Source of the DNA: Gammaproteobacteria bacterium
GTDB taxonomy: Bacteria; Pseudomonadota; Gammaproteobacteria; Steroidobacterales; Steroidobacteraceae
Length of the DNA stretch: 64,000 bases
Direction: 5' to 3'
Assembly: GCA_028293765.1 (NCBI GenBank)
Contig: JAQGOG010000089.1
Location: 62,001-126,000 of the forward strand
The notes under the pieces are model-generated. The model did no database searches, was not told the origin of the DNA, and worked only from the letters and a program-made list of their open reading frames with translations. This document shows, one piece after another, positions 4,701 to 64,000 of this stretch (its first letter is position 1; the number at the start of each line of letters is the position of its first letter). The position numbers were made by a program, and so were the translations under genes.

Positions 4701-4943
4701 GCGCGCGAGCGACTCGTGCCGATCTTGATGACTGCGCTCGTAACGGCGTTGGGATTGCTGCCGCTTGCGGCGGGCAGCGGCGAGACTGGACGCGAAGTGC
4801 AGGGGCCAATGGCCCTGGTGATTCTTGGCGGCCTGGCGACTTCGACGCTCATGACCCTCCTGGTGTTGCCTGTTTTGATCTGGCGATTCGGGCCGTTGGG
4901 TGCGGCCGCCACGAGCCCGGAACGCCGCCGCGAAGGCGCCTGA
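1746..4943 (+). CDS. RND efflux permease (CzcA/AcrB superfamily)
   Basis: 1,065 residues, the usual RND length, with two halves each made of a transmembrane helix, a large periplasmic loop and five or six further helices. The fourth helix carries GVVVDDAIIGVENI, the acidic proton-relay motif of RND pumps. It would be the proton-driven inner-membrane engine of the pump encoded with the two genes upstream. Similarity is nearest to CusA/CzcA-type or closely related permeases, but I do not see a clear methionine or metal ligand set, so metal versus organic substrate stays open. After helix four (about residues 418-450) there is an unusually long Gly/Ala/Arg/Asp-rich hydrophilic linker. Confidence 0.9.
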   Translation: MLAAIIRWSLRFPAVVCALAAILTVYGAIVLARSKYDVFPEFVPPQASVQTEAPGLVAEQVELLVTLPIEQAISGASGVEAVRSETISGLSVVTIVFHENMDPYRSRQIVAEALGEVAARLPIGVKPPKLTPLVSSTMDLLKLGFVSDKLSPMELRDLVQWTLRPRLLAVPGVARATLYGGDERQLQVEVEPGELNARDLAFSDVVSAVRSATGVRGGGFIETPNQRVLIESRGQTLTPEALGDAVIPAQSGAPLRLRDFASVTGGAAPKFGDTLIMGKAGVMLGLSSQYGANTLEVTRALEAEIASFKPALAARGVTLYAGLHRPANFIENALNGVRKDVLIGAVLITLVLFVFLRDLRSVVVAFVSIPLALLSAVIVVNALGWTINTMTLGGLAVALGVVVDDAIIGVENIVRRLRGARGQGAETAEGRGAREAGDPLRAGDAHGVGDDKRTSDLREIIQVASLEVRAPVVYATFVVVLVLAPMLMLSGLQGSFFAPLAASFIIATLASLVVALTVTPAAAFLLLTRSDPHAEPKWLLRLKRVHERILRRWTGFPRRVLIGSLVVMLLAAAVLPFFGGQLMPPFREGHFVVQAVATPGTSLEAMKALGTRVSRDLLAIPGILSVEQTIGRAESGEDTWEPNRSEFHIELRRMSGRAEARTHDAIRQTIERYPNLQSEVMTFLGDRLSESLSGETAQVAINIFGPDLDELDRVADQVAAAVRTVPGAEEVRVKAPSGAPFLRVEVRPARLQQYGFTTEDVLDTVQTAYEGATAAQVYDANRVIDLVVRLPAAERIDPEAIGALLVRAPSGVTVPLRELTTITLTEGRTSIMHEGARRRQVVTANPATSDVASFVAATRGAINQRVKLPGTVYLEFSGAAESAAQARRELLFHTAFAAVGIILLLSIAFRDARTVTLILAMAPFALVGGVLAVALTGATLSIGSLVGFVTLFGIVARNAILMIAHVEQLITVEAAPWTLATVLRGARERLVPILMTALVTALGLLPLAAGSGETGREVQGPMALVILGGLATSTLMTLLVLPVLIWRFGPLGAAATSPERRREGA

Positions 4944-5051
4944 CGTTCAGGGGTACGACGAGTCCGGGCGCAGGGGGGCGGACGGCGCTACCCTCAGGGC
5001 GCGCACAGGGTAAAATGGCGCCGCCGCCGCAGCGGTCCCGGGAGTCTCCCC

Positions 5052-5666
5052 ATGTCGCTTTACGGTTTGTCGGTCTTCAGCCTGATTTATGTATTGGCGG
5101 TTGCCGCGCCGGGACCGGGTATTGCGGCGGTCGTCGCCCGGGCACTGGGTCGCGGCATGCGCGGAGCGCCCGCGTTCATTGCCGGCTTCGTGGTCGGCGA
5201 TCTCGTGTGGCTCACTCTGGCGGCCACGGGCCTGGCCATGCTCGCGCAGGCCGCCCATACCGTGTTCGTTGTCGTCAAGTTTGCGGGCGCGGCATATCTG
5301 CTGTATCTGGCCTACCGCTTGTGGACGGCGCCTGCAGGGCCGTTGAGCGGCGCCGCGACGGAGCGCCGGGAGCGGCCGTTCCAACTCTTGATGGGCTCGC
5401 TGGCGCTGACGCTGGGGAATCCCAAGACCATGGTGTTCTTTCTTGCGGTTCTGCCGACCGTGGTCGAGCTGAAACGGCTGTCGGTGGGAGGCTTTCTGGA
5501 AATCGCGTTGGTGATCTGTTGCATCCTTCCGGCGGTTCTCGGGGCCTACACCTTGTTTGCGTCCCGCGCCCGAAAGCATCTCTCCCGGCCGCAAACTGTG
5601 CGTTGGGTGCAGCGTGGGACCGGAGCGGTCATGGCTGGAGCCGCTGTTGCAGTCGCCACCCGGTGA
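5052..5666 (+). CDS. LysE/RhtB-family amino-acid exporter
   Basis: 204 residues with about six hydrophobic segments. The start has the family signature APGPGIAAVVARALGRGMR, followed by a conserved AGFVVGDLVW helix, and GNPKTMVFF sits in the middle. All are hallmarks of LysE/RhtB translocators, which export amino acids or related small metabolites through the inner membrane. It stands alone on the plus strand, 108 bp after the efflux permease, so the substrate cannot be inferred from neighbours. A GC-rich palindrome lies about 50 bp past its stop. Confidence 0.85.
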   Translation: MSLYGLSVFSLIYVLAVAAPGPGIAAVVARALGRGMRGAPAFIAGFVVGDLVWLTLAATGLAMLAQAAHTVFVVVKFAGAAYLLYLAYRLWTAPAGPLSGAATERRERPFQLLMGSLALTLGNPKTMVFFLAVLPTVVELKRLSVGGFLEIALVICCILPAVLGAYTLFASRARKHLSRPQTVRWVQRGTGAVMAGAAVAVATR

Positions 5667-5718
5667 GGCTTCGTTAACACCCCTCCGGCCGGCTTCAGTC
5701 CCAACCGGTCGCGCATCC

Positions 5719-5739
5719 GCGGGGCCGGCCCGGCCCCGC
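5719..5739 (+). terminator. GC-rich palindrome after lysE-type gene
   Basis: GCGGGGCCGG and CCGGCCCCGC are perfect reverse complements separated by one base, so an 8-9 bp hairpin can form. There is no T-tract, so it may be a weak terminator or simply a stable RNA fold between the exporter and the sigma-factor gene. Confidence 0.3.
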
Positions 5740-5789
5740 CGCGGCCCGAATCCACAATATCCGCGACCCTGGACCGTCTACCTAAGTAG

Positions 5790-6377
5790 ATGGACGCCGC
5801 GCTCAGTGATGCTTTGACCAGTTCCGCTCAAGATCGGGAGATCTCCGCCACTGTGCGGCGCGAGCGCGGGCGGCTGCTGGCCTTCATCCGCCGGCGGGTG
5901 TTGGACGCGGCCGAAGCCGAGGACGTTCTGCAGGAGGCGCTCTACGAGCTGGTCGCAGCTCACCGCCTGCTGCAGCCGGTCGAGCAGGCGGGCGCCTGGC
6001 TGATGCGTGTGGCACGCAACCGGATCATCGATCGCTTCCGGAAGAAGAAGCCCGAGTTGTTGGCGGATCAGGCTGTCGAGTTCCAGGAAGACGACGACGT
6101 CGGCGGGTTGGAGGACCTGTTGCCGTCCCCGGATGACGGGCCGGATGCGGTCGCGATCCGCGACATGATGCTCGAAAGGATCGAGGCGGCGCTGAATGAG
6201 TTGCCGCGCGATCAGCGCGATGTGTTCATAGCGCAGGAGCTCGAGGGTGCGAGCTTCAAGGAGCTCGCCGCGAGGTGGAATGTGACCGTGAGTGCGTTGC
6301 TGTCACGCAAACGATACGCGGTTCTGTATTTGAGAGAGCGGCTGCAGGCCGCTTACGACGAGTGGCTCGAGGATTGA
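5790..6377 (+). CDS. ECF-type RNA polymerase sigma factor
   Basis: 195 residues. Region 2 is visible as AEAEDVLQEALYELVAAH followed by GAWLMRVARNRIIDRFRKKK, and region 4 as ALNELPRDQRDVFIAQELEG with a helix-turn-helix (SFKELAARWNVTVSALLSRKR). A Glu/Asp-rich linker joins them. It should direct RNA polymerase to a small regulon. No classical anti-sigma factor is next to it, but a small membrane protein follows 64 bp downstream, and such partners are often found with this subfamily. The signal it responds to is unknown. Confidence 0.9.
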   Translation: MDAALSDALTSSAQDREISATVRRERGRLLAFIRRRVLDAAEAEDVLQEALYELVAAHRLLQPVEQAGAWLMRVARNRIIDRFRKKKPELLADQAVEFQEDDDVGGLEDLLPSPDDGPDAVAIRDMMLERIEAALNELPRDQRDVFIAQELEGASFKELAARWNVTVSALLSRKRYAVLYLRERLQAAYDEWLED

Positions 6378-6441
6378 AGGCCTGCGCAGCTGCGGCAGCG
6401 ACCTCGAAATTCGCAACGTATTCGCATATGAGGAGAGAGTC

Positions 6442-6807
6442 GTGAGAGGTCGTGGTCGTTGGGTGTTTAAAGGAGCCGCGTTCCTCGGGTTCGCGCTCGT
6501 AGCGGTCGCTTTGTTGAGCTTCGTGGTGATGAGCCTGTGGAACCAGCTCGTTCCGAGCTTGTTCAGCGGCCCGAGCGTGAGCTTCTGGCAGGCGGCGGGG
6601 CTTCTGGTGATGACCCGTATCCTGGTCGGGGGCTTCCGCGGCCACGGCGGCCCTCCCTGGGGTGGACGTCACCGTCATTGGAGGAATCACACGCGCGAGC
6701 GTTGGGAGAGCATGACTCCCGAAGAACGCGAACGGCTGCGCGAGAAGTTCAAACACGGTTGCGGCTGGGGTCCACCGGACGACGTGGCGGAGCCCCCAAA
6801 GCCGTAG
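6442..6807 (+). CDS. Small two-helix membrane protein downstream of ECF sigma factor
   Basis: 121 residues from a GTG start preceded by GAGGAGAGAG. Two hydrophobic helices (about residues 10-33 and 45-65, including GFALVAVALLSFVVMSLWN and FWQAAGLLVMTRILVGGF) are followed by a Gly/His/Arg-rich stretch (GGRHRHWRNHTRERWESM) and an acidic, Pro-rich tail. Similar short proteins occur next to ECF sigma genes in other gammaproteobacteria. The His-rich cytosolic or periplasmic tail might bind metal. Function is not known; a role in controlling the sigma factor is an inference from position only. Confidence 0.65.
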   Translation: MRGRGRWVFKGAAFLGFALVAVALLSFVVMSLWNQLVPSLFSGPSVSFWQAAGLLVMTRILVGGFRGHGGPPWGGRHRHWRNHTRERWESMTPEERERLREKFKHGCGWGPPDDVAEPPKP

Positions 6808-6840
6808 ACCGTGGATGGTCATTCTGGCGAGGAGCGCGAG

Positions 6841-7062
6841 ATGAAAACAGCACCACAGCCGCCGGGCTACGCCGGCCGGGCCGAGGCCGGCGCGGCCGAG
6901 TGGACCGGAAGCATGGTTCGAGGCCTGGCTGCGCTGGAGTTCCTGGAGCGCAGCAGCGACATGGCTGCGGAGGCCGTTGTGGCAATGCCTGTTCGCGCCG
7001 CCGTCACCGATGTCAGCGCCGCGGAGCAGGAGCCGGGTCCGGGGCCGAACGCATCGCTGTGA
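6841..7062 (+). CDS. Possible small Ala-rich protein, unknown
   Basis: A 73-residue reading frame starts at ATG 6841, with GAGGAGCGCGAG directly upstream, 33 bp after the small membrane protein. The product is rich in Ala, Glu and Pro, has no recognised motif and no clear membrane segment. It could be the third gene of a sigma-factor operon or a chance ORF in GC-rich DNA. I list it because of its ribosome site and tight spacing. The next 280 bp hold nothing I recognise. Confidence 0.3.
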   Translation: MKTAPQPPGYAGRAEAGAAEWTGSMVRGLAALEFLERSSDMAAEAVVAMPVRAAVTDVSAAEQEPGPGPNASL

Positions 7063-7347
7063 CCAGCCCAGTCGCGAGTAGCGCAGCCTATAGCGCAGAG
7101 CAGCTGCACCTGGATACGAGACCCGGGCATCACGCGCGAGGCCGGGATACCCGGAGCCCGACGAAAAACACGGCCCGATAGACTCTCCCGCCGCTCAAGG
7201 AAGCCACAGCTCCCGGGCCAGTATGTCCTGCTAAGGGCGTCACGGCGCACAACGCGATTCACGACGCTCGCGGAGAGACTTTTTCGCTCGTGGCCGCGCT
7301 TACATTAGCCATTGACGAAGCGCGACTCGAAACTTCAACATCGAGTG

Positions 7348-8073
7348 GTGAAAACTTCCCTGATTCTCGTGCCGGGCCTGCTGTGCGATGAGGTCGTCTG
7401 GGCACACCAGTCAGATGCTCTGGCGGGTGTTGCTGACGTGCGTGTCGCCACGAACGGCGCTCGCGATACCTTGGGCGCAATGGCGGAGTCGATAATCGCC
7501 CAGGCGCCCGCGCGTTTCGCCCTTGCCGGTCATTCGATGGGGGGCCGAGTAGCACTCGAGGTAGTGCGACGCGTGCCGGAGCGCATCGTGGCCTTGGCGC
7601 TTCTCGACACGGGCCATTTGCCTGTCGCGGCGGGTGACGCTGGCGAGCGCGAAGTCGCTGGACGACTTGCGCTGGTCGACAAGGCGCGGCGTGAAGGCAT
7701 GCGTGCGATGGGGCGTGAGTGGATGCAGGGCATGGTCCATCCGACGCGGCTTGCCGATGCCGACCTGGTGAGCACCATTCTCGACATGATCGAACGCAGG
7801 ACGCCGGAGCTTTATGCAGCGCAAACGCAGGCGCTGATCGCACGTCCGGACGCGACACCGGTCCTGACCAGCATTCGCTGCCCCACGCTCGTGCTCTGCG
7901 GACGCGACGATGCGTGGTCTCCACCGCGACGGCATGAAGACATCCGCGATCTGGTTGCGGGGAGCGTGCTGGCGATTGTTCCGGAATGCGGACATATGTC
8001 CACTCTCGAGCAACCCGCGGCGGTTACCACCGCGCTGCGCGAATGGCTCGAGCCAGCCCTTGACGGAGGGTGA
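7348..8073 (+). CDS. Alpha/beta-fold hydrolase
   Basis: About 241 residues from the GTG at 7348 (alternatives: GTG 7345, TTG 7312). An early LILVPGLLCD oxyanion-region strand, the nucleophile elbow GHSMGG, an acidic residue in LVLCGRDDAWSP and a histidine in ECGHMSTLEQP form the standard Ser-Asp-His triad order. It probably hydrolyses an ester, thioester or C-C bond of a small substrate. Its stop lies 4 bp before the next gene, and four genes run together (hydrolase, dehydrogenase, amidohydrolase, quinone oxidoreductase), which suggests a catabolic operon. Confidence 0.85.
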   Translation: MKTSLILVPGLLCDEVVWAHQSDALAGVADVRVATNGARDTLGAMAESIIAQAPARFALAGHSMGGRVALEVVRRVPERIVALALLDTGHLPVAAGDAGEREVAGRLALVDKARREGMRAMGREWMQGMVHPTRLADADLVSTILDMIERRTPELYAAQTQALIARPDATPVLTSIRCPTLVLCGRDDAWSPPRRHEDIRDLVAGSVLAIVPECGHMSTLEQPAAVTTALREWLEPALDGG

Positions 8074-8077
8074 GACT

Positions 8078-9010
8078 ATGACGACGGATATGGGGTTCCG
8101 CAGGATAGCGGTGGTCGGATTCGGCGAGGCCGGCTCCATCCTGAGTGAGGACCTCGCGGCCACCGGTCGCGAAGTCGTCACGTACGACATTCTTTTCGAC
8201 GCCCCGGCAACTCGCGGGCCCATTCTGGAGAAAGCGCATCGCCTGCGCATTCAAACCGCCGACACCCTGAAGGACGCCGTGGCGAACGCCGATCTCGTGA
8301 TTTCGGCGGTCACGGCAGCCTCATCCGCGGCTGTCGCTCGTGGCGCGGCACGTGTACTGCGCGCCGGCCAGATATTTCTCGACATCAATTCCGTGTCACC
8401 CGCGACCCAGCGCTCGAATGCGGACGGGATACACAAGGCGGGCGCAGACTATGTCGAAGCGGCCGTAATGGCGCCCGTTCCCCCACAACGACTGAAGGTC
8501 CCAATGCTGTTGGGAGGGCGTCGTGCGGCGGAGCTGGCCATCGCTCTGAAGGCGATCGGCATGAACGCCACGGCCATCGCCGACGACATCGGCGTGGTCT
8601 CTGCGGTGAAAATGTGCCGCAGCATCGTGATCAAGGGCCTCGAAGCCCTGGCGCTCGAAAGCATGTTGGCGGCACGCCGTCTGGGCGCGGAAAAAGAAGT
8701 GCTTGCGTCTCTCCAGGGCACTTTTCCCGGCATGGGGTGGCAGGACCAGCTGCCCGATTATCTCGTGAGCCGGATCGCCGAGCATGGCCGCCGGCGCGCG
8801 GCCGAGATGCGCGAAGTGGCGCGTACCCTCGAGGAAGTGGGGATCGAGCCGATCATGGCGCTCGCCACGGCAACACGTCAGGATGGCCTCATCGAGGCGA
8901 TGGCCGCGCAGGGCGTGACCTACCCGCGCGGCGCGCCTTTTTCATGGCAGTCATTCGTCGACGCCCTCGGCGCAGGCGGGACGACTCCACAGCAGAATCA
9001 GCAGAACTAA
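8078..9010 (+). CDS. NAD(P)-binding 6-phosphogluconate-dehydrogenase-like oxidoreductase with DUF1932-type C-terminus
   Basis: 310 residues from ATG 8078, chosen because it follows the hydrolase stop by 4 bp; the longer ORF from 7910 only overlaps that gene. The N-terminus is a Rossmann fold (IAVVGFGEAGSILSEDL), then a beta-hydroxyacid-dehydrogenase-like core (FLDINSVSPATQ, VEAAVMAPVPP) and an all-helical C-terminal domain starting near KMCRSIVIKGLEAL. Family members reduce or oxidise hydroxy acids, but the exact substrate is unknown. Neighbours suggest breakdown of an aromatic or phenylpropanoid-like compound. Confidence 0.8.
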   Translation: MTTDMGFRRIAVVGFGEAGSILSEDLAATGREVVTYDILFDAPATRGPILEKAHRLRIQTADTLKDAVANADLVISAVTAASSAAVARGAARVLRAGQIFLDINSVSPATQRSNADGIHKAGADYVEAAVMAPVPPQRLKVPMLLGGRRAAELAIALKAIGMNATAIADDIGVVSAVKMCRSIVIKGLEALALESMLAARRLGAEKEVLASLQGTFPGMGWQDQLPDYLVSRIAEHGRRRAAEMREVARTLEEVGIEPIMALATATRQDGLIEAMAAQGVTYPRGAPFSWQSFVDALGAGGTTPQQNQQN

Positions 9011-9027: not shown

Positions 9028-9915
9028 ATGGCAAAGTACCAGGCAAGATTGAATCTCGAGCAGCTAGTCGCGATCGACGTTCACACCCACGCCAACATCT
9101 CGCAACGCGCTCCCCGCGATCCCTGCTCAGTCATTTTCGACGAAGCCATGGCGAAGTACTTCAAGTCCGCGGTGCCGCCGACGATCCCGGAGGTCGCGCA
9201 GTATTACCGCGAGCGCAAGATGGCGGCAGTCATCTTCCCGGTCGACTGCGAAGCCGAGATGGGGCACACGCGCATCGCCAATGAGGAAGTGGCGGAGATG
9301 TCCGCGGAGCACGCCGACGCGCTGATCCCGTTCGCGAGCATCGATCCGGCGAAAGGCAAAATGGGCGCGCGCGAAGCGCGCCGTCTCATCGAGGACTACG
9401 GGGTTCGAGGCTTCAAGTTCCATCCTTCGCAGCAGGGCTTCTATCCCAACGACCGCAAGGCCTATGTCCTGTACGAGGCGATCGCGGAAGCCGGGCTGCC
9501 GGCACTGTTCCACACGGGACAGACCGGCGCCGGTGCCGGCGCACCCGGCGGCATGGGCATCCGGCTGAAATTCTCCAATCCCATGTTCCTGGACGATGTC
9601 GCGGCCGATTTTCCCGACATGCCGATCATCCTGGCCCATCCGTCGTTCCCGTGGCAGGACGAGGCGCTCGCGGTGGCGACTCACAAGCCGAATGTCTACA
9701 TCGACCTGTCCGGCTGGTCGCCGAAGTATTTCCCGCCTAATCTCGTGCAATACACCAACACGCTGCTGAAGGATCGGATCCTGTTCGGCTCGGACTACCC
9801 GGTGCTCACGCCGGATCGCTGGATAGCCGATTTCGACAAGCTGGCGATCAAACCCGACGTGCGGCCGCGAGTCATGAAGGATAATGCAATCAGGTTGCTG
9901 AAACTCGCCGGCTAA
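9028..9915 (+). CDS. Amidohydrolase-family protein (COG2159-like)
   Basis: 295 residues. An early DVHTHANIS motif supplies two metal-ligand histidines, FKFHPSQQGF and LFHTGQTG give further ones, ILAHPSFPWQDE follows, and FGSDYPVL carries the late catalytic Asp. This is the layout of the TIM-barrel amidohydrolases related to ACMS/resorcylate decarboxylases and to beta-ketoacyl-CoA hydrolases of phenylpropanoid catabolism. It may cleave C-C or thioester bonds in an aromatic pathway together with the adjacent hydrolase and dehydrogenase. The 17 bp gap to the preceding gene supports co-transcription. Confidence 0.85.
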   Translation: MAKYQARLNLEQLVAIDVHTHANISQRAPRDPCSVIFDEAMAKYFKSAVPPTIPEVAQYYRERKMAAVIFPVDCEAEMGHTRIANEEVAEMSAEHADALIPFASIDPAKGKMGAREARRLIEDYGVRGFKFHPSQQGFYPNDRKAYVLYEAIAEAGLPALFHTGQTGAGAGAPGGMGIRLKFSNPMFLDDVAADFPDMPIILAHPSFPWQDEALAVATHKPNVYIDLSGWSPKYFPPNLVQYTNTLLKDRILFGSDYPVLTPDRWIADFDKLAIKPDVRPRVMKDNAIRLLKLAG

Positions 9916-51797: not shown

Positions 51798-51970
51798 AAT
51801 ACCCCGACGCCTTTCAGCCAGTGGACATAATCAGTTTAACGAATAGCTGTCGGCTGGAAACGCCGCGCTGATCCCTTGCAGCCCTCGATTTCGCTGCGTG
51901 CCATAAGGCCCCGCTCAGCGCTTGCAATTCAACCCTCATATTTTGGCGCATGTCAAGCGGGCTCAATAGC

Positions 51971-52010
51971 TACCCTCGTTGGGGGCAATCTACCCTCGTT
52001 GCGGGCAATC
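51971..52010 (+). repeat. 20-bp tandem repeat upstream of multicopper-oxidase operon
   Basis: TACCCTCGTTGGGGGCAATC is followed directly by TACCCTCGTTGCGGGCAATC, one mismatch in 20. It ends 105 bp before the first gene of the operon, so it may be a regulatory direct repeat or a chance duplication. Confidence 0.6.
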
Positions 52011-52114: not shown

Positions 52115-53698
52115 ATGAGTTTCCGCGCGATTTTGGGATATGCCGGATTTGTGGCGCTGATGCTGGATGCCGGAACGGCTTCCGCTCAGTTACTTAAAGC
52201 ACAGTGTCCGAGGGCAACGAATCTGCATCCGTTGATTGAGACAACTGATGCACTCGGCGCGACGACCGTGCACGCCAATCCGGATATCAAGTGTCAGGAG
52301 ATATCGGGCGGCGACGGCTACGCCACGATGGGCGACGGCACCCAGACCTACCTCTTCGGATTTGGCCCGCTGTCGGGGATTGATCTGATTTCGAAGGGCC
52401 TCCCGGGTACGCAGTCGGCAGGCGACTTCCTCAACGCCTATCACACGAAATACCTGCCGGGTCTGGATGCCAACAATGGCAATCAGCTGCTGCCCGATCC
52501 TACGACGAACCCTGCCAGCGGCTATAGCGGTGTTGACAGCCCCAATGGCGGCGTGCTCGATGCGGCCGAGATGATGAATGTCGGCGTGCTCGCGGCCCAG
52601 CAACCGGCTCCGCTGATTGCAATCAACGAAGACGACGAGCTGTACCTGACTCTGTCGAACGTCGGCATGATCATGCGGCCCGATCTCTTCGAGCAGCACA
52701 CGGTCCACTTCCACGGCTATCCGAACGCATCGTCCTACTTCGACGGCGTTCCGGACGCGTCGGTGGCCATCGCCATCTCAGGCAGCATGACGTACTACTA
52801 CACGGCTCCGGATGCGGGTACGTACTTCTTCCACTGCCACATCACACCTCCGGAACACCTTCAGATGGGTATGGTGGGACAGCTGTATGTGCGGCCGCGC
52901 CAAGACAAGGTCAGTGGCAGCACCCTGTACGCGGCGCTGACTGCAAGCAACACCGCGCACGGGCTGTCCATCGAAGGCAAGCAGTGCGCGGACATACTAT
53001 GCACCGGCGCCACGCCGGCGCCGGCAGCCGGTGACAACAACATGACCCGCGACACTGCAGGAGCGATAGTCGGTTCGGCGCAGCAGCTCTCTGGTCTGAC
53101 CCACGCGGTCAACTACGCGTACAACGATGGGGATGGATCCACCGCCTACGATGTCGAATATCCGATCCAGCTGATGGGCTTCGATCCTGCCTTTCACTTC
53201 GTTGGCATGACCTTCAACCCGGAAGACTTCTCCGGCATGAAGGATAAATACTTCATGATCAGCGGCCGCAGCTACCCGGACACGATCAGCCCCACCTTGA
53301 TCCGCACGCAGGCTTCGGACGGCCTGGCGCGGCCGAGCCAGCCGATCCGCTCGAAGATCACGCTGACCTCTTGCACTTCGCCATGCGCAGCGGGCGTCAC
53401 GCATCGCGCGCTTCTGCGTGTCTCGGACCTGAACGTCACGGAATTCCACACGCTCGCCAGCAATATTCCGATGACGGTGATCGGTTATAACGCGCGGCTG
53501 CTGCGCGACATGGCCGGCAACAATCTCTACTACGACACGAACTCGATCACGGTCGGCGGCGGCGAGTCGGCAGACATTCTCATCAAGTCGGACGACGTCC
53601 CCCCCGGTACGTATTTCCTTTACACCACCAATCTCGATCACTTGGCGAACGACGCGGAAAATGTCGGCGGCATGATGACCGAGATCGAAGTTAAGTAG
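52115..53698 (+). CDS. Secreted multicopper-oxidase-like protein 1 (with HCH type-1 motif)
   Basis: 527 residues with an N-terminal signal peptide (AILGYAGFVALMLDAGTASA). One cupredoxin domain, about residues 150-270, holds HTVHFHG (195-201) and HCHITPPEHLQMGM (240-253), that is, an HxxHxH motif and an HCH...H...M type-1 motif. The spacing HCH-x5-H is longer than the usual x3. A second cupredoxin-like domain (about 400-527; VTEFHTLASNIPMTVIGYNA) has no copper ligands. So only half of the eight trinuclear-cluster histidines are present. It is the first gene of a three-gene operon, 10 bp before the next. Confidence 0.85.
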   Translation: MSFRAILGYAGFVALMLDAGTASAQLLKAQCPRATNLHPLIETTDALGATTVHANPDIKCQEISGGDGYATMGDGTQTYLFGFGPLSGIDLISKGLPGTQSAGDFLNAYHTKYLPGLDANNGNQLLPDPTTNPASGYSGVDSPNGGVLDAAEMMNVGVLAAQQPAPLIAINEDDELYLTLSNVGMIMRPDLFEQHTVHFHGYPNASSYFDGVPDASVAIAISGSMTYYYTAPDAGTYFFHCHITPPEHLQMGMVGQLYVRPRQDKVSGSTLYAALTASNTAHGLSIEGKQCADILCTGATPAPAAGDNNMTRDTAGAIVGSAQQLSGLTHAVNYAYNDGDGSTAYDVEYPIQLMGFDPAFHFVGMTFNPEDFSGMKDKYFMISGRSYPDTISPTLIRTQASDGLARPSQPIRSKITLTSCTSPCAAGVTHRALLRVSDLNVTEFHTLASNIPMTVIGYNARLLRDMAGNNLYYDTNSITVGGGESADILIKSDDVPPGTYFLYTTNLDHLANDAENVGGMMTEIEVK

Positions 53699-53708
53699 GA
53701 GAGCGGCA

Positions 53709-55259
53709 ATGACTCACGTAAAGAACCGAGTTCGCCGCGCGCCGGCACTGTTGTCACTGCTCGCCAGTGGTCTGGGCCTGCTTAATGCGGCACCCACGCT
53801 GGCTGCAGTGCCGGGCATCACAGGCACCACCTTCAACTTGGTGGCGGCCGATGCTTACACCATCCAACCGGACGGCGCGACCCTGTACTCCTGGGGCTAT
53901 GGATGCGCCACCCAGCCGGCGCGAACCGAATTCCTGCCGGCTGTCGGCAACGGACCCGCCCCTGTGTGTCCGACCATGCAGTCGCCGGGCCCGACACTGA
54001 TCGTAACGGAAAACCAGACCGTGAAGGTTGTTCTCAAGAACACCTTGCCGAAGGCGGCCGGCAACACCTCAATCGTGTTTCCGGGATTTAGCGTCTCGGC
54101 TTCAGGCGACACGCCCGGGCTGCTCGCGAACGAAGCGGCTCCCGGTGAGACGGTCACCTACACCTTCGTAGCCGAACATCCCGGGACCTACTCCTACTAC
54201 AGCGGCTCGCAGTCCGAACTGCAGATTGAGATGGGCATGTTTGGCGCGGTCATCGTACTGCCGGCGAACGATCACGTTCCGGCCAAATGTGTCAATCAGG
54301 GCACGTATTCACTCGCCAAGGCCGCCTACAACAACCCCGGCGCCTGCTATGACCGCGAGTACCTGTTCCAATTCAGCGAAGCCGATGCGCGCGTGCACCA
54401 AGCCGTGGACGACCAGGTGCATACAGCCGGCCCGACCGGTTCCGCTTCCGGTTCGCTCAATGTATCGATGGATCCGTATCAGCCGCAGTATTTCCTGGTG
54501 AACGGCCGCTCCATGCCGGATGACATGGACGCCCCGTACGCAACCAGCTACCTACACCAGCCGTACAACGGCAACCCGCACATGCATCCGGGCGAACTGG
54601 TGCTGATGCGGATCATCGGCCAGGGCCGCATCCAGCATCCGTTTCACTTCCACGGCAACCATGCGCGTGTGCTGGCCCGTGACGGCAATCTGCTGCTGAG
54701 CACCGACGGTACCTCGCTGGCCGGTCCGCTGCTGTTTACGACGCCGACAGTGCCCGGTCAGAGCCAGGATCAAATCTTCGCGTGGACGGGGCAGGGCCTG
54801 AACTGGGACGTATACGGACGTACGCAATCGCATACCTGCAACGGCGTGACGATTGCCGCAGCCATAGCAAACCTTGCTACGGCGCCTCACAGCCAGGCCA
54901 CGGATGCCGATCTGACGTTGGCTGGCAAGTTCGGAATATATACCAGCCCGTTTGACGCCACGACGAAAGAATGGTGTCCGGATCACGGCAAGGACATTCC
55001 GGTCGCGCCGCCCGATCCGCAGGCGGTGGCCAACGGTTTGTGGTACGGCGGCACGCCATACCTCGGCATGCAGTCTGCCAACCCGACGCCATTGCCCCCG
55101 GGAGCGGTGCGACAGAATTCGGATGCCGGCTATGCCTTCATGTGGCACTCACACAATGAGCGCGAAATCACGACGAACAATGTGTTTCCTGGCGGAATGA
55201 TGATGATGCTCATCATCGATTCTCCAAATTCGACGTTGTCCATCGACGAGACGAAGTGA
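53709..55259 (+). CDS. Secreted multicopper-oxidase-like protein 2 (HFHG/WHSH motifs, no type-1 Cys)
   Basis: 516 residues with a signal peptide (LLSLLASGLGLLNAAPTLAA). The N-terminal cupredoxin-like domain (SPGPTLIVTENQTVKVVLKN, EHPGTYSYYSGSQ, EMGMFGAVIVLP) has lost the usual histidines (YYSG instead of YHSG). The C-terminal domain has HPFHFHGNH (310-318) and MWHSHNEREITTNN (480 onward). HFHG and WHSH look like motifs I and II of laccases. No HCH motif exists, so there is no type-1 copper. It may need protein 1 to complete an active site. Secretion is likely through Sec. Confidence 0.82.
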   Translation: MTHVKNRVRRAPALLSLLASGLGLLNAAPTLAAVPGITGTTFNLVAADAYTIQPDGATLYSWGYGCATQPARTEFLPAVGNGPAPVCPTMQSPGPTLIVTENQTVKVVLKNTLPKAAGNTSIVFPGFSVSASGDTPGLLANEAAPGETVTYTFVAEHPGTYSYYSGSQSELQIEMGMFGAVIVLPANDHVPAKCVNQGTYSLAKAAYNNPGACYDREYLFQFSEADARVHQAVDDQVHTAGPTGSASGSLNVSMDPYQPQYFLVNGRSMPDDMDAPYATSYLHQPYNGNPHMHPGELVLMRIIGQGRIQHPFHFHGNHARVLARDGNLLLSTDGTSLAGPLLFTTPTVPGQSQDQIFAWTGQGLNWDVYGRTQSHTCNGVTIAAAIANLATAPHSQATDADLTLAGKFGIYTSPFDATTKEWCPDHGKDIPVAPPDPQAVANGLWYGGTPYLGMQSANPTPLPPGAVRQNSDAGYAFMWHSHNEREITTNNVFPGGMMMMLIIDSPNSTLSIDETK

Positions 55260-58200: not shown

Positions 58201-61200
58201 TACGGCGCAGCACGGCACGACGACCGTCACGGGTCGCGTTCCCAGCCTGCACATGGATCGGCCGCGTCCGACCATGGCGAACCTGAACAATAGCTGCGCT
58301 ACCGCCACGAATGCCGATGGCTCGCCGATCGATCCCACGGATGCGAGCTGCCGCGCGACGCTAAATTCGAGCCCGTGCTACGTGGCCGTGAATTCCAGTT
58401 CCGGCACCGGCGCGACGGTGGCACTGAGCACTTGCGACAAGAACGGCAACTTCTCGATCGCCGGGGTTCCGGCCGGCCAGCACGAGTTGGTCATCTGGGA
58501 CCAATGGCTCGACCAGATCATCGCCTACAAGGCGCTGACGGTTCCCACCGGCGCGTCGACCGTGAGTGCCGGCGACATCCCGGTATTCAGCTGGTTCACG
58601 CGCGTCGAGCAGTCGGCGTACCAGGACCTGAACGGCAACGGCATCCGCGATTCCGGTGAGCCGGGAGTGTCGCAGATCCCGATGAACGTCCGCTTCCGCG
58701 ACGGCAGTATCTCGAATTTCCTGTCGACCGACTCCCAGGGCTCGGTGACGGCCAATGAGCTGTTCCCGCTGTTCAACTGGTACGTGTTGGAATCCGATAC
58801 CACCCGCTACACGGGCACGGGCGTAATGACCGCCTATGACGCCGGCGGCAAGCCCGACGCGAACACCACGAGCGTGGATGACCTCAACGGCGTGCACCAT
58901 AACGGGGTCGACTATCGCGGGATTCTCAATTCGAAAGAATCTTATGAGCTGCCGGCGGCACTGCAGGTCCCGAACGCTCAATACACGCCGGGTACGACCC
59001 AGCGCATCGACCCGGGCACCACGCTCACCGAGGGCACCCAGGGCTATATCAACCAGACCGCCCATGTGGACTGGGGCAAGCGCCCTTATGTGTCGGGTGA
59101 GAACGGCGGCATCACGGGCATGGTGTACTACGCCTCGACCCGCGGTTTCGATGATCCGAGCCTCGAAGTGCAGTTCTCCTGGGAACCGGGCGTTGCCGGG
59201 GTGCCTGTGAACCTCTACCAAGAGTTCAAGAACCCCGACGGCAGCGTCACGAAGATCCTGGTCGATCACACCACCACCTCGAGCTGGGACGCCTCGACTG
59301 CGCAGATGTACTGCCCGGGTGAGCCCGACTATGACGCAACCCAGGGCACCGGCGATCCGTTCGTCAATGTGACGATGGCACAGGCTCAGGTGGCGAAGGG
59401 ACAGAGTGCTGCGTCCGCCAAGACCGCCTGCTATGACGGTCAGCACAGCTTCAACCAGATCCAGCCGGCGGTGTACGACGGGCGCTACAAGTTCCCAACG
59501 TCCAATTGCGCGGCCACGGTCTGCGTGCAGAACCCGGCGATTGCGACCCTTAAACTCACGGGCAAGGCCGCTGCGGGTACGTCGCCCACCGTGCTGCCCA
59601 ATGGCAACTACATCGTCGAGCTGGTGGTGCCGCCCGGCTATGAGATCGTCAAGGAAGAGGACAAGAACATCCTCATCGGCGACACCTACATTGCGCCCTA
59701 TGCGATCACCCAGTTCATGGGCGTCGGCAACATCTTCATCGTTCCCGATCAGGCCACGCTGAATGACGCCAACGTGCCGGGCGGCAACCTGGCCAGCGCG
59801 TTTCCGTCCTGCGTCGGTACGCCGCACCTGGTGCCCGACTATCTGACACTGTTCCCGGACAACGCGCAGGACTCGCCGTATGCGGGTCAGATGCGTCCGC
59901 TGTGCGATCACAAAGAAGTCGGCGTGACCGATCAAGGCCAGGGCGGCGCGGACTTTCAGCTGTTCACGCAGACCCCCATCGCCGGGCACATCAGCGGCAT
60001 CATGCTGAATGATGCGGCCGCCGAATTTGATCCCTACAACCCGGCATTCCTGGAAAAAGCGTCGCTGCCGAATGCGCCCATCTCGGTGCGTGACTCCAAC
60101 GGCGTCGAAATTCAGCGCGTGTACAACGACCGCTACGGCACGTTCAACAACTTGGTGCCCTCGACCTGGGAAGCCAACATCCCGAACCCCAGCGGCTACG
60201 CGCCCAACATGCTCACCTATTGCATGAACGATCCGGGTCCGATCGCCGATCCGAGCGGTGCGCTCGATCCCAAGACGCACAAGGTCCGCCTGATCGCCGA
60301 CCCCATGTACAACCCGATGTTCAGCAACTTCTGCTACAACTGGCCGTCGATGCCGGGCATCACGACGTACCTCGATACGCCGGTGCTGCCGGTCTCGGCC
60401 TACGCGTCGGCCTCGAGCTATGAGCCGGTGGACTGCGCGTATCCCGCGAGCACCCCGGCGATATATCGCGTCGATGGCAGCAACGCCTTTACCGGTGCGC
60501 CGGCCAACGTCGGTCCGGTAGTCGATCTCGCCACGGGGCGCACGCTGACCATCACGGCCCTGGGCGATGTGCAGGTTCCCAACCCTGCCTATGAAGGTCC
60601 CAATGCCGTGTCGATCACCTGCCCGGAAGGCGTGACCTGCAGCCAGCCCAACCAGCCGAAGATCACGCGGCACTACGGGTTCGGCGATACGGCGGGTACC
60701 GTGCAAGTTGGCAGCTTGACGTTGAACGTGGCTGCGAGCGACTGGTCGGACAAGACGATCGTCGCGACGGTGCCTGATTCGTTTACGGGGTCCCTGGCCG
60801 GTGAATTGGTCGTAACCAACTCCACACGGGTCAAGTCGATCGACACGGTCACCGTGACGATCGGCAGGAACCTCAAGGCCGCCTACGTCGCGCCGCCGGT
60901 GCTGGGTACTTCGACCGCCACGTCTCTTGCGCACCCGATCCAGGATGCGATCGACGCGGCGAAGCCGGGTGATCTCATCATCGTCGATGCCGGCAACTAT
61001 TCTGAATTCGTGATCATGGATCGCCCGGTGCGCCTGCAGGGCGTCGGCGCGGCCGCCACGGTCATCAATGCGACCAAGTATCCGAACCAGAAAGTGGACC
61101 ACTGGCGCACGCGCATCAATAAGCTGTTTGGTCTCGACAATCAGGGAAATACTCTGACTGGCCCGGCGGGCACCGATCCGGCGGTGGATCCGCTGCCGGG

Positions 61201-63595
61201 ACAGGAGATCACGGGTGGCGTGGTGCTGCTCGAGCCCTCGGTGCTGTCGACTGAAGAAGGCGCGGGCATCACGGTCGTCGCCAAGGGCTACCGGTCCGAC
61301 GGCACGACACCGCTGGGCAGCGGCAACGTCGATTGCGGCAACATCCACAACTTCCGCTGCAGAACCGCGCGCATCGACGGCCTCGCCGTCACCGGCGGTG
61401 ACGCCGGCGGTGGCATCTACGTCAACGGCTGGGCGCATGGCCTCGAGATCTCGAACAATCGTGTGTACGGCAATGCCGGACCGTTCGCGGGCGGCGTGCG
61501 CATCGGCCAGCCGTACCTTGAGGGTCAGGTGCTCAGCAACAATTTCTCGGGCTTCAAGTACGACGAGAACATCCTGGTGCATCACAACGCGATCACCAAT
61601 AACGGCACGGTCGAGGGCAATGCGGCGGCGGGCGCCACCGCGGCTGCCGCCGGCGGCGCGGGTGGTGGTCTGTCGATCTGCGCGGGCAGCGACGGCTACA
61701 AGGTGACCGGCAACTGGATCTGCGGCAACTACTCGAGCAGCGACGGTGGCGGCATCGGCCACATCGGCCTGAGCACCAAGGGCCTGATCCAAGGCAACAA
61801 GATCCTCTTCAACGAGAGCTACAATCAGTCCGGTGCGCAATTTGGCGGCGGCCTGGTGATCGAAGGCGAGGGCGGAACCGGCACCACGCTGACGCTCGGC
61901 ACGGGCAACGTGGCCGTGGATCAGAACCTGATTCTCGGCAACTTCTCGCGCGCGGGCAGCGGCGGCGGCATTCGCTTGCAGAGCGTCAACGGCGCCGAGC
62001 TGCGCATCCGTCAACTCGACCCCTGGCGCGTCACGGTCACGAACAACATGATCGTGAACAACGTCGCGGCGTGGGCCGGAGCGGGCATCTCGCTCGCCGA
62101 TACGCTCTACAGCAACATCGTCGGCAACACGATCGCTTCCAATGACAGCACCGGAATCGCCGGCAACCTGTTCAATACGCAGATGACCACGGGCAACACA
62201 GGTCCGACCACGGCCGTGCCAAACCCGGCCGGTATCAGCTCGGAGCTGACCTCGCAACAGCTGCTGGAGGCGCTGCCGATTGATGAACGTGCCGAGAACC
62301 GGATCTCCAATCCGCGTCTGGTCAACGACATCGTCTGGCGCAACCGATCGTTCTTTTTCAACATGGACGGCGGAGCGCCGACGACTCATCTGCCGCAGCT
62401 GAGTCCGTCCAATAAGTGGACGGACGCGCTGGCCGCCAGCAAACCCGCGCTCGGTACGCCGGGCGCCGACGGCTGCACGACTGCGGACGTCTACTGGGAC
62501 CTCGGTGTAGTGGGTGATACTTCGCCCACCATGCCTGTGTCGCGCCCGGCAATCCGGCCAGGCAACACGCTGCTGTCGGGCAAGCCGAACCTGGTGAAGT
62601 CCTACTGCAACGCTTCGCGTGCGGTGCCGGGCCTGCAGTTCGAGCCGGGCACGCCGTTCCAGCCCGCCTTCAACATCAGCGTCGCCGCGACCCTGGATGA
62701 ATCGGGCAACTTCGTCGACCTGCACTTCGGACCGCTCTCGCTGCAGGACCAGGCCTCGGGCACGGTCGTCAACGGTGACTATCACATTGCCGGCCAAAGT
62801 GGTGATGCGTTCGACACCGGCGTGGCTCCGAATGTGGGTCAGTACGGGGCGCACGATTACGACGGCGATACCCGTCCGCAGTTCTCGGCCTATGACAAGG
62901 GTGCGGATGAGCTGCGCCTGCCGGCGCCGATCGTCACGCTGTCGGCTACGTCGTTGAGTTTCTCCACTGTGCAGGGCACGGCGGCGGCGACGCAGACGAT
63001 CACAGTGACGAATGTCGGGGACGCGAACCTGACCGGCATCGCGGTGAGCATCACAGGCGCGTTCTCGCAGTCGAACACCTGCACTGACCCGATCGGCTTC
63101 GCGCCTGGCAGCAACACGTGCACGATCACGGTCAGCTTCACGGGGACCCCTGTGTCGAACAACTACAACGGCACATTGGCGGTCACGGACAACGCGGTGC
63201 CCAGTCCGCAGTCGGTGACCCTCCACGGCGCAGTCGTGGCCCGGTCGGTGCGGGGCGCCTTCACGCCCTCGCCGGCGGCCTGGACGCAGGGCCAAACTGG
63301 CGCCCTGAACGACCGGGTGATCACTCTGAGGGCCAATACGGCGAACAATGCGCCGCTGGTCATTCAGAGCATTCCCACCGTGACGTCGCAGGGTGCACGT
63401 TTCTCGATCACGTCCACTACCTGTACTGCCAATCTGGCATTGCCGGCGGGTAATGCCTGCACTGTGACCGTGCGCTATGTGACTCGCGGCACCGCCGCGC
63501 AGCGTAATGCCGGCGCCTCGCTGAATGTGCAGACCAATGCAACGAATCCGGTGAATGCCACTGGTCTCATCAGCGACAACCTCAACGGTGGTTAA
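55268..63595 (+). CDS. Giant secreted multidomain protein: cupredoxin-like, Ig-like, SdrD B-like, beta-helix
   Basis: About 2,775 residues; starts at 55268 or 55292 are likely (GGGAGA before the latter), giving a signal peptide ending GGIALAQ. Numbering from the ORF-track start at 55256: a cupredoxin-like region to about 460 (GPTIVVPTD, LRPGTYLYETGS, YFLINGHAFN, MGLYGVLVV) without the copper histidines; VCBS/cadherin-like repeats about 461-655 (NGNVLTND, GVLANDT); SdrD B-like domains near 810, 1121 (DLNGNGIRDSGEPGV), 1286 and 1579; an IPT/TIG-like region about 1762-1880; a right-handed beta-helix about 1894-2370 (IQDAIDAAKPGDLIIVDAGN, GGGI/NN repeats); and a choice-of-anchor-like domain about 2559-2660. 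No LPXTG, autotransporter barrel or RTX repeats are seen. It is probably an extracellular or surface partner of the two oxidases. Confidence 0.85.
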   Translation: MEMFGRKFMPYEYIKSLLRTVAITVPVMLAGGIALAQTTANLTAARMSATLPDGAAVPMWGYCQTATSGDACPSTAWAPGPTIVVPTDSTGFGSLTINLSNSLPINTSIVILGQAGGGMGASLPREESPTGGTHARQGVTWPSTGTPCPANAATQDPPCTDPTFAPSGQQSRALAFGVEAPAGGNNAYSWTHLRPGTYLYETGSLPSLQAPMGLYGVLVVTQAPTATLAGDAYPNKTVVVNKVTTPGAAYDADVTVLLSEVDPRQNAAVDAAAAGKADPLKLFNDSSCTTSTPCYPPVVNYAPTYFLINGHAFNPTRPADSGFAFSGNAAVSGNVLVRLVNAGLRMHVPSIVGVKSVNVVAEDGNLAPGTPKKQSHILMAAGKTYDVTFKPTQTTAGLFDNVSLPIFDRALNLTSGNLDHQSVVANSGMLAFLAMQPAKATVGDTGSGGAAVPAALQAVVVPDVFATPVGTPVNGNVLTNDINVVTAAVTSTATKMGGVVTLATDGSFIYTPPPPDSSGNAFVGQDAFTYNGNGSAALSAVVTITVGTTALPIAVADTGAAAFTSNVASLYKSGAPGVLANDTASDGKTIVGLSAVLEANQDCASVDLQPDGSFTAVPSTAGTPCNFTYRAKNEMGAVSKVAAKATVNFAAGSGLAVTVQDTQDPLPTGAIGDYSWVIEEDTTFFHDPKTPGATNTLATNFHKSYMPVLATGCTGPYSCGDKNTVGGTAIAPRTRSLPADVVLDPNKRYFISILPGDADQGSAAYNADGSVAVTSFGHTMGGVPIAAGQQAATVLVARNPLPPSQLSVIVFEDNNPTNGGVDDNEQGLGGFTINLYDTRGSSGDPAGLMTYDLSAMPFTNSLANQTDSITHINLCPLTTPSGTIITCPELDSSGQPSPLAGMALIKNINPGRYDVWATPGADRAIKGEQWVQVSTLEGTHANDTFIKPGEPPYWQEFGPPGFHSFIGFINPAHIKAVTTAQHGTTTVTGRVPSLHMDRPRPTMANLNNSCATATNADGSPIDPTDASCRATLNSSPCYVAVNSSSGTGATVALSTCDKNGNFSIAGVPAGQHELVIWDQWLDQIIAYKALTVPTGASTVSAGDIPVFSWFTRVEQSAYQDLNGNGIRDSGEPGVSQIPMNVRFRDGSISNFLSTDSQGSVTANELFPLFNWYVLESDTTRYTGTGVMTAYDAGGKPDANTTSVDDLNGVHHNGVDYRGILNSKESYELPAALQVPNAQYTPGTTQRIDPGTTLTEGTQGYINQTAHVDWGKRPYVSGENGGITGMVYYASTRGFDDPSLEVQFSWEPGVAGVPVNLYQEFKNPDGSVTKILVDHTTTSSWDASTAQMYCPGEPDYDATQGTGDPFVNVTMAQAQVAKGQSAASAKTACYDGQHSFNQIQPAVYDGRYKFPTSNCAATVCVQNPAIATLKLTGKAAAGTSPTVLPNGNYIVELVVPPGYEIVKEEDKNILIGDTYIAPYAITQFMGVGNIFIVPDQATLNDANVPGGNLASAFPSCVGTPHLVPDYLTLFPDNAQDSPYAGQMRPLCDHKEVGVTDQGQGGADFQLFTQTPIAGHISGIMLNDAAAEFDPYNPAFLEKASLPNAPISVRDSNGVEIQRVYNDRYGTFNNLVPSTWEANIPNPSGYAPNMLTYCMNDPGPIADPSGALDPKTHKVRLIADPMYNPMFSNFCYNWPSMPGITTYLDTPVLPVSAYASASSYEPVDCAYPASTPAIYRVDGSNAFTGAPANVGPVVDLATGRTLTITALGDVQVPNPAYEGPNAVSITCPEGVTCSQPNQPKITRHYGFGDTAGTVQVGSLTLNVAASDWSDKTIVATVPDSFTGSLAGELVVTNSTRVKSIDTVTVTIGRNLKAAYVAPPVLGTSTATSLAHPIQDAIDAAKPGDLIIVDAGNYSEFVIMDRPVRLQGVGAAATVINATKYPNQKVDHWRTRINKLFGLDNQGNTLTGPAGTDPAVDPLPGQEITGGVVLLEPSVLSTEEGAGITVVAKGYRSDGTTPLGSGNVDCGNIHNFRCRTARIDGLAVTGGDAGGGIYVNGWAHGLEISNNRVYGNAGPFAGGVRIGQPYLEGQVLSNNFSGFKYDENILVHHNAITNNGTVEGNAAAGATAAAAGGAGGGLSICAGSDGYKVTGNWICGNYSSSDGGGIGHIGLSTKGLIQGNKILFNESYNQSGAQFGGGLVIEGEGGTGTTLTLGTGNVAVDQNLILGNFSRAGSGGGIRLQSVNGAELRIRQLDPWRVTVTNNMIVNNVAAWAGAGISLADTLYSNIVGNTIASNDSTGIAGNLFNTQMTTGNTGPTTAVPNPAGISSELTSQQLLEALPIDERAENRISNPRLVNDIVWRNRSFFFNMDGGAPTTHLPQLSPSNKWTDALAASKPALGTPGADGCTTADVYWDLGVVGDTSPTMPVSRPAIRPGNTLLSGKPNLVKSYCNASRAVPGLQFEPGTPFQPAFNISVAATLDESGNFVDLHFGPLSLQDQASGTVVNGDYHIAGQSGDAFDTGVAPNVGQYGAHDYDGDTRPQFSAYDKGADELRLPAPIVTLSATSLSFSTVQGTAAATQTITVTNVGDANLTGIAVSITGAFSQSNTCTDPIGFAPGSNTCTITVSFTGTPVSNNYNGTLAVTDNAVPSPQSVTLHGAVVARSVRGAFTPSPAAWTQGQTGALNDRVITLRANTANNAPLVIQSIPTVTSQGARFSITSTTCTANLALPAGNACTVTVRYVTRGTAAQRNAGASLNVQTNATNPVNATGLISDNLNGG

Positions 63596-63638
63596 TGCGC
63601 CGTTGATCACGGACGAGAAAGATGTAGCGCTCTCTAAA

Positions 63639-63706: not shown

Positions 63707-64000
63707 ATGAAAGCCACAAATAAGATCACCATCACCGCTCTAGGGTGCTTGATGTTCGCAAGTACTTGCGGCATTGCAGGGACGCCGGCGCGCGAATCGA
63801 CGGCGGCGGTGAAGCCGAACGCCGAGTCGGCGACGCTCTGGCACGCCCGCAACGCCGACCGCTACAAGCGCGAATGGGGTGTGGATATTGTCGGTGTGCG
63901 ATCAGTGTCCTCGGGGTACATGCTGCGGTTTGCCTACCGGGTGATCGATCCGACCAAAGCGGCGCCTCTCTTAGATGAGCGGACCAAGCCTTATCTCTAC
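63707..64000 (+). CDS. Exported protein of unknown function (cut by window end)
   Basis: The first 98 residues are present, from ATG 63707, with the frame open to the end of the window. An N-terminal signal (ITITALGCLMFASTCGIAG) is followed by TLWHARNADRYKREWGVDIVG and MLRFAYRVIDPTKAAPLLDE. I do not recognise a named family. It follows the giant gene's terminator, so it probably has its own promoter. The Ala- and charge-rich linker after the signal fits a periplasmic or membrane-anchored protein. Confidence 0.7.
   Translation, partial: MKATNKITITALGCLMFASTCGIAGTPARESTAAVKPNAESATLWHARNADRYKREWGVDIVGVRSVSSGYMLRFAYRVIDPTKAAPLLDERTKPYLY

Follow-up and report, generated by a model that had tools for sequence, protein, structure and literature searches.

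Two adjacent genes at this locus encode oxidase-like proteins, here called P1 and P2, each of which holds only part of the copper ligands of a multicopper oxidase (MCO), raising the question of whether the two parts belong to a single active site and in what kind of assembly they would meet. We addressed this question by analyzing the window (the whole 64,000-nucleotide stretch of DNA) together with relatives sampled from beta-, gammaproteobacterial, and acidobacterial contigs, from genomes of the window's order and class, and from Cupriavidus and Paraburkholderia replicons.

P1 and P2 carry complementary halves of a copper-ligand set

P1 (52115..53698, + strand, 527 aa) and P2 (53709..55259, + strand, 516 aa) are adjacent ORFs, both preceded by an AGGAG/GGAG that resembles a ribosome-binding site by eye, and both encode predicted secreted two-domain cupredoxins whose domain families are Cu-oxidase_2/_3 (the N-terminal signal of P1 was read by eye). 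Domain 1 of P1 (about residues 60-265) holds one complete type-1 site and four trinuclear-center histidines, distributed over two motifs. The first, HTVHFHG (52697..52717, + strand, residues 195-201), provides H195 to the type-1 site and H198 and H200 to the trinuclear center, and the second, HCHITPPEHLQMGM (52832..52873, + strand, residues 240-253), provides H240 and H242 to the trinuclear center and C241, H248, and M253 to the type-1 site. Nothing comparable was found in domain 2 of P1 (about 330-527), which is devoid of ligands and reads IPMTVIG (by eye) and YTT (by mapping on the laccase structure 3g5w) at the first and second motif positions, respectively. In P2, domain 1 is the one without ligands, and domain 2 provides the remaining four trinuclear-center histidines, namely, H313 and H315 in HPFHFHG (54636..54656, + strand, residues 310-316), whose H310 is likewise invariant, and H480 and H482 in WHSHNE (55143..55160, + strand, residues 479-484); an HCH or type-1 cysteine is absent. 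These are the motifs that the sequence-only reading had reported for the two proteins, and its description of them is accurate. Jointly, P1 and P2 present eight trinuclear histidines and one type-1 site, the roles of the individual histidines being those that we take from established MCO chemistry.

Two near-identical 20-bp direct repeats (CTACCCTCGTTGCGGGCAAT) lie at positions 51970-52010, approximately 105 bp upstream of the P1 start, and are a possible candidate for a regulatory site. Within P1, an imperfect 30-bp tandem repeat (52703-52762) overlaps the region of the HTVHFHG motif.

P1, P2, and a third chain are related to type-C two-domain laccases

A third gene, P3 (55256..63595, + strand, up to 2779 aa), lies mostly outside the 52115-55259 interval spanned by P1 and P2 and encodes a cupredoxin head followed by a scaffold. 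The ATG at 55292 is the likelier start, because GGGAGAAAG precedes it and a signal-like sequence follows it (by eye). The first ~440 aa form a third two-domain cupredoxin, in this case ligand-less, and the scaffold of approximately 2,300 residues contains Ig-like (Big_9), SdrD_B, beta-helix, and choice-of-anchor-D-like regions. On the minus strand, a 1749-codon open frame (58361-63610) runs antisense to P3 and is probably a by-product of GC-rich codon bias rather than a gene.

The best PDB matches of P1 and P2, obtained with single sequences or profiles, include the type-C two-domain laccases 3g5w, from Nitrosomonas europaea, and 2zwn, a metagenomic laccase; 3g5w was the top profile match for both proteins and is also matched by domain 2 of the P3 head. 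The ligands of 3g5w domain 1 are all kept in domain 1 of P1 (26 of 26 sequences). Domain 1 of P2 and both domains of P3 present other residues at the 3g5w ligand positions, with two kinds of exception: a minority of sequences have a histidine at one trinuclear position, and domain 2 of P3 retains the first histidine of the motif. Local alignments gave identities of approximately 27% between P2 and the P3 head and 25% between P1 and P2, and each of the three groups formed its own clade in the tree. These sequence relationships make all three cupredoxin chains paralogues of the type-C two-domain laccases.

Type-C enzymes are described as homotrimers in which the trinuclear center lies at the subunit interface, where domain 1 of a given subunit meets domain 2 of its neighbor (PMC6854816). 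As in type-C enzymes, the chains of this locus have two cupredoxin domains each and sequences related to 3g5w and 2zwn, and P1 alone among them further shares with these two laccases the location of the type-1 ligands in domain 1 (H195, C241, H248, and M253) and the HCH-x5-H spacing. However, whereas type-C enzymes and the complete relatives (L073-L089) have both half-sets on every chain, the half-sets are here carried by different gene products, with four trinuclear histidines on P1, four on P2, and none on the head of P3, a third paralogue for which the type-C homotrimers have no counterpart. The HCH-x5-H spacing of P1 had been called unusual, a view that we do not share: 3g5w (HCHVNVNEH), 2zwn, and the majority of the closest complete relatives (L073-L089) display it, and it is unusual for three-domain laccases only and ordinary in type-C two-domain enzymes.

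The P2 WHSHNE motif pairs with IHDH of 3g5w and FHDH of 2zwn in a low-scoring segment of the profile alignments, and WHSH reaches the template alignment only past an insertion of approximately 100 residues. More broadly, the P2 segment WHSHNErEittndvFPGG pairs with IHDHVDTHTTNGDKPDGG and FHDHVDTHVTAGGKHPGG in the profile alignments to 3g5w and 2zwn. A cruder automatic fragment alignment put the template at DVYGR of P2, elsewhere than WHSH; the WHSH assignment is preferred on account of the invariant H480 and H482 and of the match in the flanking FPGGM strand.

The half-sets are invariant and genetically linked

In alignments of 26 sequences, residues H195, H198, H200, H240, C241, H242, H248, and M253 of P1 and residues H310, H313, H315, H480, and H482 of P2 were invariant, the aligned sequences being 37-77% identical to those of the window. 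In a wider set, complete half-sets were present in 41 of 41 P1 and 37 of 37 P2 proteins, these being the proteins found with the motif pattern. With the ligands invariant across the alignments, the division into half-sets is not due to chance. Domain 1 of P1 had the highest mean pairwise identity of all domains (76%, versus 61% for domain 2 of P1), and the P3 head was the least conserved.

At every readable locus, P1, P2, and the P3 head are encoded by neighboring, unfused ORFs. Among 246 genomes of the order, 17 have P1; P2 accompanies it in 14 of these, and 13 of the 14 also have the P3 head. Of the genomes that have P1 but lack P2, two have P1 at a contig end and one bears a deletion (L055). 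That single deletion starts within P1, removes P2 and P3, and ends in the LolA-like gene, so that the whole unit disappeared at once. A further complete P1-P2-P3 cassette is present on a different contig of the window's own genome (L019, contig C17); it is approximately 50-55% identical to P1 and P2 and has type II secretion-like genes directly upstream. Most triad chains of each kind bear a hydrophobic N-terminal signal of their own. P3 heads fused to the scaffold belong to one clade; in a second clade (L010, L011, L060, L061, L094, L098, L099, and L101-L103) the scaffold is an upstream gene of its own, and P2 is followed by a gene that encodes the head alone. The existence of the head as an independent gene in this second clade supports the idea that it is a functional subunit.

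No natural P1-P2 fusion was found. The only candidate, a frame of 2371 aa in L092, overlaps the P3C gene by chance, and the 1128-aa frame in L145 carries a P2-like chain behind a repeat region, with a separate P1-like gene still following. The repeats at L145 (702-4085) comprise approximately 800 residues, apparently Ig/carboxypeptidase-regulatory-like, and their fusion to the P2-like chain echoes the scaffold fusion of P3.

Two-gene relatives divide the ligands in the same way

Matches to the P1 profile in genomes of the class include proteins, termed duo B, of approximately 340-390 aa that display HTIHxHG and HCHx5HxEMGM without second-domain ligands. The adjoining duo A protein (approximately 310-370 aa) displays HxHG and a late HxH, so that the ligands are divided as in P1 and P2. 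Strong P2-like matches occurred in roughly 6% of 369 class genomes, and A and B were adjacent with the same ligand division at 20 of 22 duo loci, the other two being short sequences that probably stop at contig ends. Duo loci comprise L109-L114, L115-L136, L145, L146, and L148, and their B proteins are often Gly/Met-rich at the N-terminus.

The export signals of the two partners follow a distinct pattern, in that 18 of the 21 P2-like (A) chains carry a Tat-type RR motif, two of the exceptions being cut by the sequence end, and only 1 of 20 P1-like (B) partners has a clearly hydrophobic signal peptide. In Tat hitchhiking, a signal-less partner that is exported with a tagged one must first bind it. 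A Tat-tagged A chain next to a mostly signal-less B chain thus points to export as a complex, and this duo pattern constitutes the best available, and the sole direct, evidence that the half-sets meet in one complex. In the duo form, the tagged A protein would co-export the signal-less B protein, and the copper center would be completed only after checked assembly.

A tree of six groups splits the P2/P3/duo A side from the P1/duo B/complete-laccase side (99/94), with long branches, uneven composition, and an uncertain root and placement of the complete laccases. One ancient division of labor is the simplest history for such a split, with the P3 head as a P2-side paralogue whose ligands were lost; as a former A-type subunit, the head further suggests that the ancestral ring contained two A chains and a single B chain. 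We slightly favor the view that P1/duo B and P2/duo A form a widespread, obligately heteromeric class of MCOs, characterized by Tat co-export and with the P3 head as an ex-A subunit.

Proposed assembly and alternative explanations

With a probability of approximately 0.76, the locus encodes a heteromeric split MCO in which P1, P2, and the P3 head assemble as a ring with one inter-chain trinuclear center. The model that we infer covers assembly, stoichiometry, ring order, copper binding, catalysis, and substrate. The ring would most likely be a 1:1:1 P1:P2:P3 heterotrimer built like the type-C two-domain laccase trimer, in which only one of the three domain-1/domain-2' interfaces, that of P1 domain 1 against P2 domain 2, would be active. 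P1 would supply the type-1 copper (H195, C241, H248, M253) together with H198, H200, H240, and H242, P2 domain 2 would supply H313, H315, H480, and H482 to the single trinuclear center formed between the chains, and the P3 head would close the ring and tether it to the giant extracellular scaffold. With P2 domain 2 abutting P1 domain 1, exactly one complete site would result, and homotrimers of P1 or of P2 would have none; very probably, neither chain is an enzyme alone, the active form arising only once the chains unite. The reduced substrate, for which Fe(II), Mn(II), and mineral-bound metal are the likeliest candidates, would donate electrons to the type-1 copper, and O2 would be reduced at the trinuclear center.

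The sequence-only reading had proposed a split MCO assembled from P1 and P2. Its inter-chain trinuclear center is well supported by homology, by the invariant half-sets, by linkage, and by the export pattern of the duo relatives. Besides the view of the HCH-x5-H spacing, two of its elements required revision: given the third paralogous chain, the unit is likely to be a ring of P1, P2, and P3 instead of a P1/P2 pair, and the template is a type-C two-domain laccase and not a three-domain laccase cut in two. AlphaFold2 single-chain models of P1 and P2, built from 12-sequence alignments, were poor (mean pLDDT of 40 and 45.5, respectively), and no pertinent report on heterotrimeric or split two-domain oxidases was found in the open-access literature.

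Since neither chain alone has a complete trinuclear set, and since cupredoxin-fold proteins using few sites are common, P1 might instead be a one-copper electron-transfer or metal-binding protein and P2 a separate copper-binding or scaffold protein, with no shared center and with the histidines as relics. We consider this unlikely: relics would decay, yet the eight trinuclear positions are invariant at 37-77% identity, the same positions were lost in P1 domain 2, P2 domain 1, and P3, and the half-sets stay adjacent genes in the two-gene family too. Less probable still is that the locus represents a split form of the single-chain six-domain manganese oxidases MnxG/MofA/OmpB. These enzymes also have one type-1 and one trinuclear site and comprise six cupredoxin domains, as many as P1, P2, and the P3 head together, and their genes likewise have neighbors coding for a MofC-like cytochrome c, SCO1, and a type II secretion system (T2SS), as in the mof/ompB clusters; T2SS genes lie near several triads, and the export of OmpB by an atypical type II system is the subject of a title cited in PMC5566968. 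By their descriptions, however, they are set apart from the triad as one chain with the type-1 site in domain 2. Bacterial six-domain proteins have their center between domains 2 and 3 (PMC3600357), whereas here the type-1 site falls in P1 domain 1, which corresponds to an odd-numbered domain of the nearest template, and the similar Sideroxydans genes are stated not to be homologous to MofA/OmpB (PMC5566968). Moreover, the six domains are spread over three separate chains at every readable locus, the strong P1-profile family matches included no frame above 1,000 aa except the chance frame of L092, and no six-domain chain was found branching inside P1, P2, or P3. Marginally less probable again are separate homotrimers docking on each other or on P3, with the trinuclear center at a non-laccase interface: the ligands map to the domain-1 and domain-2 faces of the template, making a laccase-like interface the simplest solution.

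A search of the order with Cu-oxidase_2 for single chains resembling MofA yielded largely ordinary MCOs; the longest frame read (1278 aa), which ends in an HCH-x3-H type-1 motif, was set aside.

If the heteromeric split MCO is real, genes that are now annotated separately as multicopper oxidases would be non-functional alone, and single-gene expression or knock-out would therefore mislead. The triad would stand today midway between homotrimeric two-domain laccases, which are symmetric, and six-domain proteins that are asymmetric and have a single trinuclear center. The P3 head, if a former A-type subunit, would illustrate how two of three centers might be lost from pseudo-symmetric proteins such as ceruloplasmin. 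The two-gene form would be a candidate for Tat co-export of the split halves of one active site.

Gene neighborhood and possible role

The window ends within the next downstream gene, of which it contains the 5′ part (63708..64000, + strand) and which is complete in L020 (161 aa). Beyond the window lie genes for a LolA-like protein, two cytochrome-c-domain proteins, a 156-aa ORF, and SCO1/SenC. In L020, both cytochrome-c-domain ORFs have CxxCH motifs, with Cytochrom_C marginally below the Pfam cut-off for one (4839-6731) and without a Pfam match for the other (6716-8428), and SCO1/SenC is found at 9058-9756. The probable function of these adjoining SCO1/SenC and cytochrome-c-domain proteins is copper loading or electron transport. 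GspE, secretin, and pseudopilin-like genes are located directly upstream of the triad in C. metallidurans CH34 (L045:5703-13786), a layout shared by L019, L046, L047, L050, L054, L056, L061, and L095, and possibly constitute a dedicated type II secretion system.

A comparable cluster has been described in Sideroxydans lithotrophicus ES-1, where Slit_1812-1818 contains three tandem MCO genes (Slit_1816-1818) with a mofC-like gene and SCO1 (PMC5566968), and the three Sideroxydans cupredoxin proteins are reported to show higher expression with magnetite than with Fe(II)-citrate (PMC12016527). By description, Slit_1816-1818 resemble the triad in being adjacent extracellular cupredoxins, of which two have MCO motifs and the third lacks them and is much larger. 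The triad likewise consists of three adjacent secreted cupredoxin genes, of which the third is larger and has no MCO motifs, with SCO1/SenC and cytochrome-c genes in the cluster (L020), and the locus of a Sideroxydans metagenome-assembled genome (L004) has P1-P2-P3. The two reports call Slit_1816-1818 uncharacterized, and their available portions make no mention of complementary halves, paralogy, or assembly (PMC5566968, PMC12016527). Given this matching layout and the expression on magnetite, extracellular oxidation of a metal or mineral is the best guess for the role of the triad, at about even odds by analogy. If correct, the heteromeric split MCO would provide a structural hypothesis for the magnetite-associated cupredoxin set of Sideroxydans, as well as for numerous gene clusters of Burkholderiales and other bacteria. 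Near other relatives, response-regulator and sensor-like genes were found.
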